From: Flavobacteriales bacterium
GTDB taxonomy: Bacteria; Bacteroidota; Bacteroidia; Flavobacteriales_D; Crocinitomicaceae
Direction: 5' to 3'
Length of the DNA stretch: 33,062 nucleotides
Assembly (NCBI GenBank): GCA_003331365.1
Contig: QOQC01000013.1
Span: 1 to 33,062, forward strand
Under the pieces are notes generated by a model. That model ran no database searches. It saw only the letters and a list, made by a program, of their open reading frames with translations, and was not told the origin of the DNA. The position numbers were made by a program, and so were the translations under genes. This document shows positions 1-9,123 of the stretch, in pieces. Numbering within the stretch: position 1 is the first letter of the stretch; the number at the start of each line of letters is the position of its first letter.

Positions 1-1553
1 TCATCTTCAGACAAACCAAATCTGCTTGTTGTTGACTCGCTAGGCTTACTGTCATCAAGCTCAATAGATCTCCTTTTGTAAGCAGGTTCCTTTTCAAAGT
101 CTGCAATCCCTTCAGCCCTTTTTAACTTTGCGGTATGTTCCTGTATTCTGTTTACGCGGTCTTGCGCATTTTTTTGTGCATTTTCAGATGAAACCTGTGA
201 AGCATCAATTTCCTCAGTGCTGTCATCCTCTAAATTGTGTTTAATGATCTTATCATTTGTGAATAAATCAGTTTGACCTTCGGTATCCGTACGAGGCTCC
301 ATTTCATTGACTTCCCAAACCACACCTTCACCCTCTGAGGATTCCTCATCACTGTCTTCTAAATTAAAGACTATTTTTTCTTTGTTTTCAACCTCAGTAA
401 TTTCTTCTACTTGTTCAGGGGTTATTTCTTCTGCTGATTTTTTGACTAAGTAAGGCTCGTCTTCTTTTGCCTCTTCGGTTACGTTTTCTTGTACTGGATT
501 TTGTAATGGCTGCTTAATTTCCACCATTTTTTTATCCTGTTCTAAATCCACAACCTTTCTTGGCTCTGGCTTTTCTAGTGGCACAATTAAATTATCGTCC
601 GTACCAAAACCAGTTGCAATAATGGTTAGAGATAATTTATCCCCGAGGCTCTCATCGTATCCGTGACCCCAGATAACATCCGCACCAACTCCGGCTGCTT
701 CCTCAATATAATCAGTGATTTCACTGATTTCGTCCATCATTACTTCTTTGGCTCCATAGGTCATGTTTAATAAGATGTATCTCGCCCCATGAATGTCGTT
801 ATCATTTAATAGTGGAGAGGACAAGGCCGCTTCAACTGCTTTCATAGCACGGCTTTCACCTTCCATTTCCGCAGAGCCCATAATGGCGTGTCCGCTATTA
901 CGCATTACAGTATTCACATCATTAAAATCGACATTAATTATACCCGTTTTCTTAATCACCTCTGCAATGCCTTTTGCCGCGACAGATAAAATATTATCCG
1001 CATGAGAAAAAGCAGTGGATAAAGTCATGTCTTTTCCAAACTCTTTTAAACGATCATTACTAATGATTAATAAGGTGTCTACATTTTGACGCATTTTCTC
1101 AAGTCCTTCTTGAGCTTGTTGTAAACGTCTTCTCCCCTCAAAGTTAAATGGAACCGTAACGATTCCAACTGTTAACACACCCATGTCCTTGGCAACCTGA
1201 GCAATTACTGGCCCTGCACCCGTACCTGTTCCGCCTCCCATACCAGCAGTTACAAAAACCATCTTTGTATTATTGCTTAGCAATTCTCGAATGTCTTCGA
1301 TATTTTCCATAGCAGCATTCATGCCCACATCTGGAATCATACCCGCTCCTCTTCCCTCAGTAAGGTCTTTACCAAGTTGAATCTTTATTGGAACAGGTGA
1401 TTCATCTAAGGCCTGCTTATCCGTATTGCATATGATAAAATCCACGCCTTCAATACCTTGATTGTACATATGATTGACAGCGTTTCCACCACCACCACCA
1501 ACACCAATTACTTTAATATCTGAACTGTTTTCTTTGGGCATTGCAAATTGCAT
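1..1553 (-). CDS. ftsZ: Cell division protein FtsZ (C-terminus cut off by window edge)
   Basis: FtsZ is the tubulin-like GTPase that polymerises into the cytoplasmic Z ring and recruits the divisome. I translated it from the minus strand; it starts at ATG 1553 and stays open to base 1, so at least 517 residues are present and the end is missing. Residues 17-24 are a glycine run typical of the nucleotide site (VIGVGGGGG), and the tubulin signature GGGTGTG is at 106-112. An NDVN-type T7 loop follows in the core. After roughly residue 325 the sequence becomes a long, Glu/Asp-rich, low-complexity linker of about 190 residues, much longer than in E. coli. The C-terminal peptide that binds FtsA lies outside the window. 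It is the last gene of the dcw operon seen here, 23 bases after ftsA. A second possible start is ATG 1541 (residue 5). Confidence 0.97.
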   Translation of the reverse strand, partial: MQFAMPKENSSDIKVIGVGGGGGNAVNHMYNQGIEGVDFIICNTDKQALDESPVPIKIQLGKDLTEGRGAGMIPDVGMNAAMENIEDIRELLSNNTKMVFVTAGMGGGTGTGAGPVIAQVAKDMGVLTVGIVTVPFNFEGRRRLQQAQEGLEKMRQNVDTLLIISNDRLKEFGKDMTLSTAFSHADNILSVAAKGIAEVIKKTGIINVDFNDVNTVMRNSGHAIMGSAEMEGESRAMKAVEAALSSPLLNDNDIHGARYILLNMTYGAKEVMMDEISEITDYIEEAAGVGADVIWGHGYDESLGDKLSLTIIATGFGTDDNLIVPLEKPEPRKVVDLEQDKKMVEIKQPLQNPVQENVTEEAKEDEPYLVKKSAEEITPEQVEEITEVENKEKIVFNLEDSDEESSEGEGVVWEVNEMEPRTDTEGQTDLFTNDKIIKHNLEDDSTEEIDASQVSSENAQKNAQDRVNRIQEHTAKLKRAEGIADFEKEPAYKRRSIELDDSKPSESTTSRFGLSED

Positions 1554-5047: not shown

Positions 5048-6162
5048 TTCAATATTAATTTCTCGGTTTCATTAACTATATCAGATGTTGCATTTGGTCT
5101 TGCCATGGCTATGATATTCTTGGACAATTTACTGGAAAGCTCTTTATCTAATAAAAGAGATTCTGCTTTTTCAAGGAGGTCTTTATGACAATCTGCATCC
5201 CTAACTATTAATGCAGCATCCGAACGGACTAAAGACATGGCATTCTTTGTCTGATGATCTTCTGAAACATTGGGAGAAGGAACAAGTATTACTGGTTTAC
5301 CCATTAAGCACAATTCCGAAACAGATAATGCTCCAGCTCTTGATATGATTACATCTGCTGCACAATATGCGGCATCCATTCGTGAGATAAATGAAAGAAG
5401 ACGGACTTCTGATTTTTGTTTGTTACCCACTCTTTTTTCGAGCTCATCAAAATAATATTTACCACATTGCCATATAAATTGATTTTCCATAGGCTCAGCC
5501 GATTCAACTCGATTAAGCATCGCTTGATTTAATGTTCTTGCCCCTAAACTACCCCCTAAAACCAAAATGGTTTTTTTATTGGGCGATAAGTCAAATGATT
5601 TATGTGCCTCTTCCCTAGAAATTTCATTTACCGAAAGGTTTTTTCTTACCGGATTTCCTGTTAGTCTGATTTTTTGTTTTGGAAAAAATTGCTCTAATCC
5701 ATCATATGCAGTACAAATCATATCGACCTTTTTTGACAATAAAATATTTGTCTTCCCAGGAAATGAATTCTGTTCTTGAACTACAGTAGGAACTCCTAGC
5801 AAGGTTGCCATTTTCAATGTAGGCCCGCTGGCATATCCACCAACACCTATAACCACCTCAGGAGCAAAATTCTTAATCACCTTTCGAGCACGTAGAAGAC
5901 TGATCAAAAGCTTAAATGGAAGTAAAAAATTTGAAAGGCTTAGCCTTCTTTGAAAACCCACAATAGGAAGTCCAATAATTTTAAATCCAGCATCAGGAAC
6001 ACGGGTCATTTCCATTTTCCCCGTAGCACCTACAAATAAAATATCGACATCTGAATTTCTTAATTTAATCTCATTGGCAATTGCAATTGCAGGAAAAATA
6101 TGCCCCCCAGTTCCGCCACCAGAAATAATTACTCTAGAAATATGCTTGCTATTATCCTTCAT
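5044..6162 (-). CDS. murG: Lipid II synthase MurG (UDP-GlcNAc transferase)
   Basis: MurG transfers GlcNAc from UDP-GlcNAc to lipid I on the inner membrane face, giving lipid II. The 372-residue protein has the GT-B fold signature GGGTGGH at 15-21 with HIFPA directly after. GVGGYASGP (lipid I binding region), the GGSLGA turn and the donor-site region ISRAGALSVSEL follow in the order expected of MurG. Hydrophobic and basic residues around 75-100 (FLLPFKLLISLLRARK) fit the membrane-association patch. The start ATG overlaps the end of ftsW by 11 bases and the stop overlaps murC (ATGA). This places it in the usual ftsW-murG-murC order. Confidence 0.97.
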   Translation of the reverse strand: MKDNSKHISRVIISGGGTGGHIFPAIAIANEIKLRNSDVDILFVGATGKMEMTRVPDAGFKIIGLPIVGFQRRLSLSNFLLPFKLLISLLRARKVIKNFAPEVVIGVGGYASGPTLKMATLLGVPTVVQEQNSFPGKTNILLSKKVDMICTAYDGLEQFFPKQKIRLTGNPVRKNLSVNEISREEAHKSFDLSPNKKTILVLGGSLGARTLNQAMLNRVESAEPMENQFIWQCGKYYFDELEKRVGNKQKSEVRLLSFISRMDAAYCAADVIISRAGALSVSELCLMGKPVILVPSPNVSEDHQTKNAMSLVRSDAALIVRDADCHKDLLEKAESLLLDKELSSKLSKNIIAMARPNATSDIVNETEKLILK

Positions 6163-7324
6163 CTAAAAATACTTTACCCGTCTTACTTCCCTTCATACTC
6201 TTGTAAGCGATTGACTGAACAATTCCAATAGATATACATGCCATAATGAGTGCAGAGCCTCCCATGGCCAAAAACGGCATATTTTGTCCAGTCACAGGAA
6301 GAAAACCCGTGCATACCAGCATATTTATGGTTGCCTGTGAAAGCAAATGAATACCAATACCCAAACAGGCATATGATTCAAAAAGACTGTCTGTTTTTAA
6401 GGCAATTTTTATAATTCTAAGTAAGAGAACGAGATATAAAAAAATAAGCAGAAAGGCGGACAAAGAACCAAATTCTTCTACAAAAGAAGCATAATAAAAA
6501 TCCGCATAAGCCTCAGGTAAATATTCCTTTAATCTTCCATCGCCAACTCCCTGACCAATGATCGATCCATTGAATATGGCCAATTCTGCATTATTAGATT
6601 GTGCGTTCTCACTTACACTAGATTGATTAGGTGCGGTTTTTCGATCAATGCGATTTTCCCAGGTGTCATAACGTGGCAATAAACCAAAGTTTGGAAAGGC
6701 TTTATGAATTGTTATTGCTAAGGATATCAAAACAACCCCTCCGGCAACAATACTTGTCAATTTGAGCCAAGGCATTTTACCAATAAACAATAGAATAAAT
6801 GACAATATAAAAATCATGAAGGCTGTAGATAAATTATCTTTAAAGATAAGTCCACATATTATAACTATCGGTATAAGTAATGGCCAAAATCCCTCTTTCC
6901 AATTATCGAGTTTATTCTCCTTTTTTACCAATAATCTTGACAAATACAAAATAAGAGCAAGCTTCGCAAAATCAGAAGACTGAAATGTCAAGCCGATATA
7001 TGGGATTCTTATCCAACGATTGGCATCATTGACATTCACACCAAAAAACATAGTGAAAATCAACAAGACGATAGAGAGATAAAAAGCAAACTTACTGATT
7101 TGGTAAATATATTTTGAATCGATTCTATGAACCACATACATTGAAAAAAATCCAATAAGCACATACATTAAATGCTTAAATAAATAATAAAAAGGAGTGC
7201 CACCCTCGATTTTAACAAGAATAGGAACAAAGCTGTAAACTGTTACCAAGGAAAAAGAAAGCATCAAAATTGATATCATCCAAATCACTGGATCTCCTTT
7301 TAGATATTTTAAATAAGCCCTCAT
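6152..7324 (-). CDS. ftsW: SEDS peptidoglycan glycosyltransferase FtsW
   Basis: FtsW is the septal SEDS polymerase that joins lipid II into glycan strands, working with the transpeptidase FtsI. The 390-residue protein has about ten hydrophobic segments. The catalytic aspartate region LPEAYADF places Asp at 275, and the late SEDS motif appears as TGQNMPFLAMGGSALI. NRWIRI near 102-107 corresponds to the family's NA-RWI segment. A hydrophilic extracytoplasmic loop around 212-250 is Asn/Ser-rich. The gene starts 3 bases after the small unknown gene and overlaps murG by 11 bases. FtsW is preferred over RodA because of its place inside the dcw cluster next to murG; sequence alone would leave some doubt. 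Confidence 0.95.
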   Translation of the reverse strand: MRAYLKYLKGDPVIWMISILMLSFSLVTVYSFVPILVKIEGGTPFYYLFKHLMYVLIGFFSMYVVHRIDSKYIYQISKFAFYLSIVLLIFTMFFGVNVNDANRWIRIPYIGLTFQSSDFAKLALILYLSRLLVKKENKLDNWKEGFWPLLIPIVIICGLIFKDNLSTAFMIFILSFILLFIGKMPWLKLTSIVAGGVVLISLAITIHKAFPNFGLLPRYDTWENRIDRKTAPNQSSVSENAQSNNAELAIFNGSIIGQGVGDGRLKEYLPEAYADFYYASFVEEFGSLSAFLLIFLYLVLLLRIIKIALKTDSLFESYACLGIGIHLLSQATINMLVCTGFLPVTGQNMPFLAMGGSALIMACISIGIVQSIAYKSMKGSKTGKVFLDEG

Positions 7325-7327
7325 TTA

Positions 7328-7777
7328 TTAAAGCTTAGAAAATAATGAAGAGAAATAATTCATGGAATATGGCCCATCTGAATCTGATGCTGTAAAGACC
7401 AAAATTCCTGGTGTAAAAGAAAAATTATTGAGATGATCTATGGCCTGTTTTATATCAACGAAATGTTTAATGTCCTTGTTAATTACTATGTCCTGACATT
7501 CTCCGTAAACAATATAATCTACAGGCTTTTTACAGTTGTCACCATAAAGATTTATATGGGCATCAATCTCTGCATAATTCCCCAACCAGATGGTTTTAAA
7601 CGGAAACGATTCAATGGTTTTTGCCAAAACCGAAATATTGGGATTGTGCCAGCTAAAAGCATCCATCCCAAATAACTTCCCATGCGACCTCAGCGAGGAT
7701 ACAGAAGAACTTGATTGTGAGAGTTCTTGAGCTTTAGCTATAGCACTCCTGATTTTATCGAATTCCTTTTCTATCAT
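7328..7777 (-). CDS. Unknown protein resembling a lone Mur ligase C-terminal domain
   Basis: I do not recognise this as a named gene. It encodes 149 residues with no membrane segment or signal peptide, so the product is probably cytoplasmic. Residues 1-34 are polar and helix-like with a serine run. From about residue 35 the order of motifs mirrors domain 3 of MurF: MDAFSWHNPNIS (compare the MurF DxYNANPxS motif), then FKTIWLGNYAEID (compare the LGDMxELG turn), then YIVYGE, IKHFVDIKQAIDHL and GILVFTASDSDG (compare the KGSRG segment). Key residues are altered, and there is no P-loop or UDP-binding domain, so it cannot be a complete ligase. It fits tightly between murD (2-base gap) and ftsW (3-base gap), so it is co-expressed with them. 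The reading frame is intact and murD is full length, which argues against a simple broken gene. The homology is by eye only; its role is unknown. Confidence 0.8.
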   Translation of the reverse strand: MIEKEFDKIRSAIAKAQELSQSSSSVSSLRSHGKLFGMDAFSWHNPNISVLAKTIESFPFKTIWLGNYAEIDAHINLYGDNCKKPVDYIVYGECQDIVINKDIKHFVDIKQAIDHLNNFSFTPGILVFTASDSDGPYSMNYFSSLFSKL

Positions 7778-7779
7778 GA

Positions 7780-9123
7780 TTAAAGCATTCTTACCGCTTG
7801 CTTAAATTGATTTCCACGATCTTCATAGCTCTCAAACAAATCAAAACTCGCACACGCAGGAGAAAGCAAAACCGACTCATTTTTTCTAGCCAATCGATAT
7901 GCATACGCAACAGCCTCAACGGCACTTCTTGCCTCAACTAATGTTTCAACTTTCGACTGAAAGGCCTCTTTTATTTTTTCATTATTTTCTCCCAAACAGA
8001 TAATGGCTTTTACTTTTTCATCTACCAAAGTGATTAATTCGTCATAATCATTGCCCTTATCTACTCCACCTACAATCCATACGGTAGGTTTTTCCATACT
8101 TTCCAGAGCAAACCAGGTTGAATTGATATTGGTTGCCTTGGAATCGTTAATAAATTCTACACCATTAATCTTGGCAACAAATTCTAAGCGGTGTTCTACA
8201 TTGACAAAATCCTCAAGACTTTGTCGCACAATATCCTTGCGGATTTCTACAATTCTGGCAGCTATCCCTGCCGCCAAAGAATTTTGGGTATTGTGCTTAC
8301 CCTTTAAAGCTAAATCATGAATGGACATAGTAAATTGATTTTTTATATTTATTATTATTTGTTCCTTGTTTAAGTACCCTCCCACCTCTTGCTTTTTGGT
8401 TAGAGAGAATGTTGCGAGATTCATATTGGTGCTTTTTTTTTTCAGCGCCGATGTAATTCTAGAATCGTCTGAGTTATAGATAAACCAGTCTTTTTCCGTC
8501 TGATTATTTATGATTTTCATTTTCGAATTGACATATAAATTCATGTCATTTTCATATCGATCTAAATGGTCAGGAGTGATATTCAACAAAACAGATATAT
8601 CCGCCCTAAAATCTTTCAAGTCATCAAGCTGAAATGAGCTTAGCTCAAGGACATAATATTCATAGTCTGAAGACGCCAACTGACGTGCAAAACTCTTTCC
8701 TATATTCCCACCGAAGCCAACGCTGTAACCTGCTGATTTAAGAATATGATACACCAACATTGTTGTTGTTGTTTTTCCATTACTTCCTGTGATACATATG
8801 GTTTTAGCAGAAGAAAATCTAGATGCAAACTCAATCTCAGAAAGCACTTTGATTTTTGAATCCTTTATGAAATTTATGATTGGTGTATTATTTGGAATTC
8901 CAGGCGACTTAATAATCAAATCAGCTTTTCCAATTTTATCAAGCGTATGTCCATTTTCTTCATAGGAAATGTCATTTCCTTCAAGCTCTTTTCGGAATTG
9001 ATCTTTGATCAAATTGAAATCAGAGACAAATACATTTGCACCCACTTTTTTGGCAAGCAGAGCTGCGCCAACTCCACTTTCTCCAGCGCCAATAATTGAG
9101 ATATATTTATTTTTCAAATTCAT
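7780..9123 (-). CDS. murD: UDP-N-acetylmuramoylalanine--D-glutamate ligase MurD
   Basis: MurD adds D-glutamate to UDP-MurNAc-L-Ala in the cytoplasm. With the start chosen here the protein has 447 residues, normal for the family. The N-domain has IIGAGESGVG at 10-19, the ATPase domain has the P-loop GSNGKTTT at 113-120 and LNITPDHLDRY, and the C-domain has the MurD motif NDSKATN followed by VWIVGGVDKG. The reading frame extends upstream to ATG 9180. I prefer ATG 9123 because it forms a TAATG junction with the mraY stop, like the two junctions upstream, and because the extra 19 residues do not look like MurD. The stop lies 2 bases before the unknown 149-aa gene. Confidence 0.96.
   Translation of the reverse strand: MNLKNKYISIIGAGESGVGAALLAKKVGANVFVSDFNLIKDQFRKELEGNDISYEENGHTLDKIGKADLIIKSPGIPNNTPIINFIKDSKIKVLSEIEFASRFSSAKTICITGSNGKTTTTMLVYHILKSAGYSVGFGGNIGKSFARQLASSDYEYYVLELSSFQLDDLKDFRADISVLLNITPDHLDRYENDMNLYVNSKMKIINNQTEKDWFIYNSDDSRITSALKKKSTNMNLATFSLTKKQEVGGYLNKEQIIINIKNQFTMSIHDLALKGKHNTQNSLAAGIAARIVEIRKDIVRQSLEDFVNVEHRLEFVAKINGVEFINDSKATNINSTWFALESMEKPTVWIVGGVDKGNDYDELITLVDEKVKAIICLGENNEKIKEAFQSKVETLVEARSAVEAVAYAYRLARKNESVLLSPACASFDLFESYEDRGNQFKQAVRML

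Follow-up and report, generated by a model that had tools for sequence, protein, structure and literature searches.

As a target for antibacterials MurD has been studied, and the dcw cluster in which it is encoded is among the best-known gene clusters. A Mur-type domain 3 put to another job is found in MurT of the lipid II amidotransferase MurT/GatD, which is a precedent for reuse; its partner is GatD, and MurT retains the central ATP-binding domain, unlike the protein described here. PDB entry 3mvn, a putative Mpl ligase C-terminal domain, is a domain 3 studied alone; by its title it is a domain cut from a ligase, whereas the gene described here is separate. According to PMC4816537, MurD switches between an open and a closed form by rigid-body motion of its C-terminal domain, and Thr321, Lys348 and Ser415 of the Escherichia coli enzyme contact D-Glu or its mimics (PMC3527612). 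Mur ligases that bind MurG are represented by the MurE-MurF fusion of Bordetella pertussis (PMC6420597), where whole enzymes are fused and no domain is free. The order of dcw genes has been reconstructed with tandem copies counted as one gene (PMC8871954), and searches of open-licence papers, judged by listed titles and the openings of abstracts, gave no description of a free-standing MurD domain.

In the window, i.e. the whole stretch of 33,062 nt from a Flavobacteriales bacterium that was analysed, a gene on the minus strand at 7328..7777 (149 aa; the coordinates take in the stop) is a free-standing, diverged copy of the MurD linker helix and domain 3, as judged by reading frame, predicted fold, profiles and place. 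It starts with ATG and runs through 149 codons with 0 internal stops; murD ends at 7780, 2 bases ahead of it, and ftsW starts at 7324, 3 bases further on, so that the intact 149-codon gene with 2- and 3-base gaps in the dcw operon, as the initial annotation had it, is borne out by the reading frames. The neighbouring murD (7780..9123, minus strand) is full length, with 447 aa from the ATG at 9123, and is the parent of the copy; it was recognised by reading frame and family match, as was ftsW (6152..7324, minus strand). The cluster reads mraZ, rsmH (mraW), a small gene, a PBP gene of ftsI type, murE, mraY, murD, the window gene, ftsW, murG, murC, an ftsQ-like gene and ftsA, where MurD and FtsW were checked against families and the other names were assigned by eye from translations.

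The protein is predicted to have the fold of a Mur-ligase domain 3. An AlphaFold2 model built with 21 sequences reached pLDDT 80.2 and pTM 0.71, and a second model with 69 sequences reached 75.9 and 0.70. Foldseek found no match at E <= 0.001 for either model; its top match was 3mvn (E 1.3e-3 and 1.5e-3 for the two models), with DHFR entries close behind. Upon structural realignment against the PDB, all of the best 50 rows were of Mur-ligase type (MurC, MurD, MurF, MurT, Mpl, pseudomurein ligase and FolC/FPGS), MurT standing at Z 9.3-10.3. The first row was MurD of Thermotoga maritima (4buc) for both models, with Z 11.2, rmsd 2.6 Å and 117 aligned residues for the 21-sequence model, and Z 11.3, 2.7 Å and 121 residues for the 69-sequence model. 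MurF structures reach Z 10.6-10.7, within 1 Z unit of MurD, so that MurD and MurF cannot be told apart by fold alone. The domain-3 fold covers residues 26-149 (7331..7702, minus strand), with model residues 26..149 placed on 311..445 of 4buc, and it is preceded by an N-terminal helix of residues 3-22 (7712..7771, minus strand), which profiles, alignment and model identify as the counterpart of the MurD helix ahead of domain 3. In both models this helix is of low confidence, with block means of 45-65 over residues 1-30, and its motif LLxARKxxL is common in relatives and blurred in the window member. Two conserved blocks follow on the minus strand: GKLFGMDAFSWHNP (residues 33-46, 7640..7681) lies at the position of MurD NGVEFINDSKATN according to the 69-sequence alignment and the intermediate L121, and SFPFKTIWLGN (residues 57-67, 7577..7609) is the counterpart of MurD SMEKPTVWIVGG according to alignment and profiles. 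Residues G33, K34, G37, F41, W43, P59 and W64 are at least 90% conserved in the 69 sequences.

The three-domain architecture of MurD with its P-loop centre was not found, as the alignment of the 149 aa is confined to linker helix and domain 3. The resemblance to Mur domain 3 that had been proposed from motifs holds in predicted structure and profiles, and so does the description as a degenerate, free-standing C-terminal domain of a Mur ligase without ATPase or UDP-binding domains. The expected match to Pfam Mur_ligase_C was not obtained, yet the predicted fold is domain 3 and intermediates exist. In Pfam and NCBIfam, no family names the window protein, and among its relatives there are scattered weak matches at most; one relative gave a weak match to uroporphyrinogen-III synthase (0.056). 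Against PF02875 Mur_ligase_C (curated cut-off 28.4 bits) there was no match for the window protein or for any of the 69 rows of profile set A2, and a search of PDB sequences with profiles A1 and A2 did not find MurD. The family PF02875 shares the fold, and three of six copies from elsewhere in the class exceed its cut-off (42.0, 43.8 and 46.2 bits, the other three being just below at 25.9, 27.8 and 28.1), whereas the window protein and the 68 other A2 rows are unmatched.

Copies that can still be typed are found at the same junction across the class. When the family profile was run over 295 class genomes, it found MurD itself outside the family, most frames being of about 450 aa, and six loci with such frames were checked and all proved to be murD. 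Frames of 170-217 aa appeared in four genomes, and three of the four are free-standing copies of the MurD end at the murD-ftsW junction, sharing 39-47% identity with MurD of the window; one more copy lies in G496 beside its murD. The fourth frame, on contig 59 of G466 (L160:3695-4333), is a 212-aa frame resembling MurD domain 3; neither murD nor ftsW occurs in the 6.7 kb that were read there, and contig 100 of the same genome has another such frame adjoining a murD-sized one. Profile A4, built from four class copies, gave at least two matches in 45 of 178 class genomes and one match in 128. The junction was read in 41 of the 45 (G424, G466, G542 and G569 lie outside this reading), and a copy was present in 40, short and strongly changed in G490, and absent in one (G505). 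Among the one-match genomes, 39 of 128 were read at the junction and none had a copy; this profile is blind to copies of the window type, G000, G109 and G110 scoring as one-match genomes. The 40 genomes with a copy represent 17 family codes, or 18 with the window's family, and in the phylum outside the class two matches were found in 3 of 149 genomes.

The class copies have frame lengths of 133-231 aa and share up to 56% identity with MurD of the window; those compared by BLAST align to MurD from residue 266-311 to 444-447. Hence they contain the helix ahead of domain 3, whose counterpart in the window family is the LLxARKxxL motif, and the segment of the window's murD that matches the duplicated piece is about residues 285-447 (7783..8271, minus strand). 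In profile comparison, the 65-row profile of the window family matched the 41 class copies with a probability of 93.5% (131 columns), and with one of 97.5% (130 columns) when the target was enlarged by four family intermediates. Like these copies, the window gene lies between murD and ftsW on the same strand, encodes one domain, and is related in sequence to clear copies. The frames of 572-743 aa in f21 had been considered as MurD fused to a second domain 3; they are long upstream frames, and the copy there is a separate gene. The G500 junction (L245) has a gap of 352 bases that contains a frame of 66 aa, which bears no evident resemblance to MurD. The f16 genomes G424, G506, G539 and G569 have three or four A4-profile matches each, so further copies may exist elsewhere in them.

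Two loci, the first of them in the window's own family, join the clear MurD copies to the window family by sequence similarity. The first, INTERMEDIATES L121 (G233), has a 156-aa gene between murD and ftsW (L121:1005-1475), which matches the window-family HMM built without it at 1.9e-9 and the NCBI murD model at 6.4e-9 (positions 331-418). In BLAST it matched 107 of 107 MurD sequences, the best at 7.8e-11, while the MurE and MurF sets gave no match at E 10 and the MurC set matched only at 3.9. The second, L126 of genus g28, matches L121 at 7.5e-12. In L121, YSWSGAN aligns with MurD INDSKATN, which would place the conserved Trp of the window family at the position of Asp in MurD DSKAT; this correspondence is one alignment's reading and no proof.

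Thus, the window gene is a partial duplicate of murD, and the duplicate is probably old and inherited. The 3′ end of murD, i.e. linker helix and domain 3, would have been copied into the murD-ftsW gap in some ancestor belonging to the class, and the duplicate would then have been inherited and repeatedly lost; its divergence in the window's family went so far that it is no longer named by family libraries. A tree was built from 30 MurD ends and 25 copies. A single branch (support 67/52, with 68% of bootstraps) has all the copies on one of its sides, as fits a single old duplication followed by losses, and about 18.5 changes were needed when labels were shuffled. The AU test rejects a separate duplication in f17 (p 0.027) and f43 (p 0.020), and does not reject one in f24 (0.23) or f21 (0.14). 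One origin for all copies is favoured and not proven, because L121 and others are long branches and L121 is the sole member from the window's family in the tree.

In the window's family, a protein search found the gene in 21 of 60 genomes, its own included, and in 21 of 21 loci between murD and ftsW; counted from the first possible start, these frames have 140-154 aa, apart from two longer ones of 167 and 194 aa. Five named relatives are MAGs (one Crocinitomicaceae, four Flavobacteriales). The 21-row profile found the gene in 61 of 86 genomes of the genus, its own included, and in 76 of 299 genomes of the order, all 76 belonging to the window's family. The 69-row profile found matches at 0.001 in 175 of 240 family genomes, and 162 is the safer count because 13 matches fall only between 1e-3 and 9e-7, and the two of these with a given place (G020 and G072) lie inside murD; the place of the gene was read for a minority of the 162. 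Of 87 distinct family loci in which murD and ftsW are both in view, 64 have a profile-positive gene between the two, four have a different frame of that size, one has a gap of 194 bases, and 18 are empty, a split that is no frequency since 24 of the 109 underlying loci came from genomes picked mostly for lacking a profile match. As the gene is absent in whole lineages, it is not essential. The gene of L060 had been taken for a fusion to ftsW, its frame being first given as 555 aa; a stop lies between, and the later search gave 160 aa.

The window gene is under purifying selection. In eight usable pairs its dN/dS was 0.10-0.35, where murD gave 0.03-0.11 and ftsW 0.02-0.08 (one further pair was set aside as too close, with 0.51 at dS 0.03, and one as saturated), and it evolves faster than both in most pairs; compared with L064, the nearest named relative, the values were 0.105 for the window gene and 0.106 for murD. 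The value of 0.105, the constant place and the spread through the genus rule out a chance reading frame, and conservation in relatives is confirmed, as most of the genus carries the gene under purifying selection.

With no P-loop domain and no UDP-binding domain, the window protein cannot catalyse ligation alone, and since it is kept under selection it is probably a partner of the cell-wall machinery. By a slight preference we infer that the partial murD duplicate acts as a non-catalytic partner of MurD or of a MurD/FtsW/MurG assembly. The copy would be made together with FtsW, and usually also with MurD, and would dock on MurD or on a MurD/MurG/FtsW assembly, adjusting the closure of MurD or placing it at the membrane; a co-produced free lid that has lost its substrate contacts and kept its fold would fit such a docking partner. 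In G166 (L099) and G110 (L114), both of genus g22, the dcw cluster is split at this point, the gene lying 4-5 bases before ftsW with other genes, not murD, behind it, and in G462 (L213) the copy lies directly before ftsW with no murD beside it. These three genomes suggest that FtsW is maybe an equally important partner. A pseudo-domain kept for regulation or scaffolding, which the initial annotation had put forward, is at present the best candidate reading of its role. We also consider, as a tentative idea, a trans-acting subunit derived from the lid of MurD and present in many families of the class, in which the free domain 3 might compete with or lock the mobile domain of MurD and so set the rate or place of D-glutamate addition together with FtsW. 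Equally tentative are the further parts of this idea, that the shared operon might fix the proportions of the two proteins, and that only the docking fold might be left at the final stage.

A separate gene for the mobile domain of MurD seems to be kept in the middle of the dcw cluster in many families. Many unnamed genes gain a relationship and a testable role, in a series from enzyme domain to pseudo-domain. If it is true that the copy controls MurD, it would be a naturally occurring regulator derived from a part of the enzyme itself, and would offer a model for inhibition of Mur ligases by blocking domain closure.

A decaying remnant without protein function might also be retained, through translational coupling to ftsW or by leading into it, or since exact deletion is rare; we consider this unlikely. 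Of 64 distinct family loci, 43 have a 4-base overlap between the stop of the copy and the start of ftsW, though the window does not, the gene keeps its place ahead of ftsW even without murD as a neighbour, its faster evolution and the erosion of ligand residues are as expected for a remnant, and the one 194-base gap without a long frame is what decay would leave. However, the dN/dS values in the eight usable pairs and the seven residues conserved at 90% or more speak for constraint on the protein, frames are open in the rows listed apart from single stops right where the match ends, and the empty slots, where murD and ftsW are 7-29 bases apart, indicate that loss is possible.

The residues at the ligand site bear on a further proposal, that the domain is a sensor or decoy: it would bind D-Glu, UDP-MurNAc-dipeptide or some other precursor, which it would then report or buffer. 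In 28 MurD rows from 27 genomes there is no variation at four positions, namely Asp, Lys and Thr of DSKAT and the second Ser of SPACAS; the GG(V)DKG Lys is present in 27 rows. In the 41 class copies, the DSKAT residues are kept in 32 (Asp), 22 (Lys) and 29 (Thr), the second Ser of SPACAS in 36, and Lys of GG(V)DKG in 8; the Arg-Gly of the C-terminal motif is kept in 39 and 41 of 41. By position along the E. coli alignment, these residues take in the counterparts of Thr321, Lys348 and Ser415. All five checked residues are kept in five copies, all of family f24. A sensor would agree with the retention of Ser and Arg-Gly in most class copies and with the five complete f24 copies, but the Lys that contacts D-Glu mimics in E. 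coli (Lys348) is kept in so few copies, and the motifs are so far gone in the window's family, that we regard such a function as improbable. The D-Glu-binding motifs were unrecognisable by eye in the window-family rows listed, which were one in three of the 69. The window protein is like the MurD enzyme in its linker helix, its predicted fold, its neighbouring gene and its best matches by profile and by structure, and unlike it in the absence of domains 1 and 2 and of recognisable D-Glu-binding Lys, Thr and Ser motifs. Read along the alignments, the copies form a series from a nearly intact lid to a degenerate domain, with gradual loss of ligand-binding residues.

The best-preserved copies, those of f24 (L207-L211), have 157-251 bases between them and the ftsW frame, and are therefore not tightly coupled to ftsW; f24 MurD is itself on longer branches. 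Replacement of a broken MurD lid by the f24 copy was rejected, as MurD there retains its motifs.

MurF had been proposed in the initial annotation as the closest relative, and the absence of murF from the cluster as a sign that the gene could be what remains, or what was repurposed, of one. Profile comparisons point to MurD as the source. With a query of 21 rows from the window's genus, MurD domain 3 scored 37.7%, MurF 9.7%, MurE 1.0% and MurC 0.2%; with 65 rows including L121, MurD scored 92.6% and MurF 2.5%, and without L121 71.5% and 10.6%. When the MurD set was reduced to 13 rows, the number available for MurF, MurD still gave 15-60% (21-row query), 53-75% (without L121) and 88-93% (with L121). 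In a later comparison with the 65-row query, the MurD C-terminus scored 92.3%, MurD domain 3 alone 74.7%, MurF 4.2%, MurE 3.5% and MurC 0.2%; here the class-copy profile and one MurD profile contain the linker helix and the MurF, MurE and MurC profiles do not, so that D3.a is the like-for-like MurD row. Reversed controls stayed below 1%. A remnant or repurposed piece of MurF, for which a superficial likeness of DxFxWxxP to DxYNANP and the structural tie with MurD could be cited, is very improbable: MurD leads in profile probability (38-93% vs 2.5-11% for MurF) even at 13 rows, wherever a copy between murD and ftsW can be typed it is MurD, 17 other family codes carry such MurD copies, and a full murF above the curated cut-off lies elsewhere in the genome (G000:C71:2346-3563), which also removes the argument from its absence. 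That the gene is instead an unrelated Rossmann-like protein, arisen or inserted between murD and ftsW and resembling domain 3 by convergence, can practically be dismissed. The weak direct sequence evidence for the window member alone speaks for it, but place, size and N-terminal helix are the same as in MurD copies, L121 and L126 form a chain to them, and the profile match spans 130 columns.

Two minor observations concern other Mur ligase genes. In G104 (L143 and L122) two murD matches lie on different contigs, 56% and 66% identical to the window's MurD, the 56% match lying where a contig ends and covering no more than the N-terminal part; this may be due to duplication, a mixture of strains or contamination. 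The window's own genome has a second MurF-like frame of 761 aa (G000:C34:10422-10982), which matches MurF positions 2-185, i.e. the first half. It is probably a MurF-alanine racemase fusion, a known type of protein that would give such a match. Such a fusion exists as model NF008897, and similar MurF-like frames of about 740-820 aa recur across the family.
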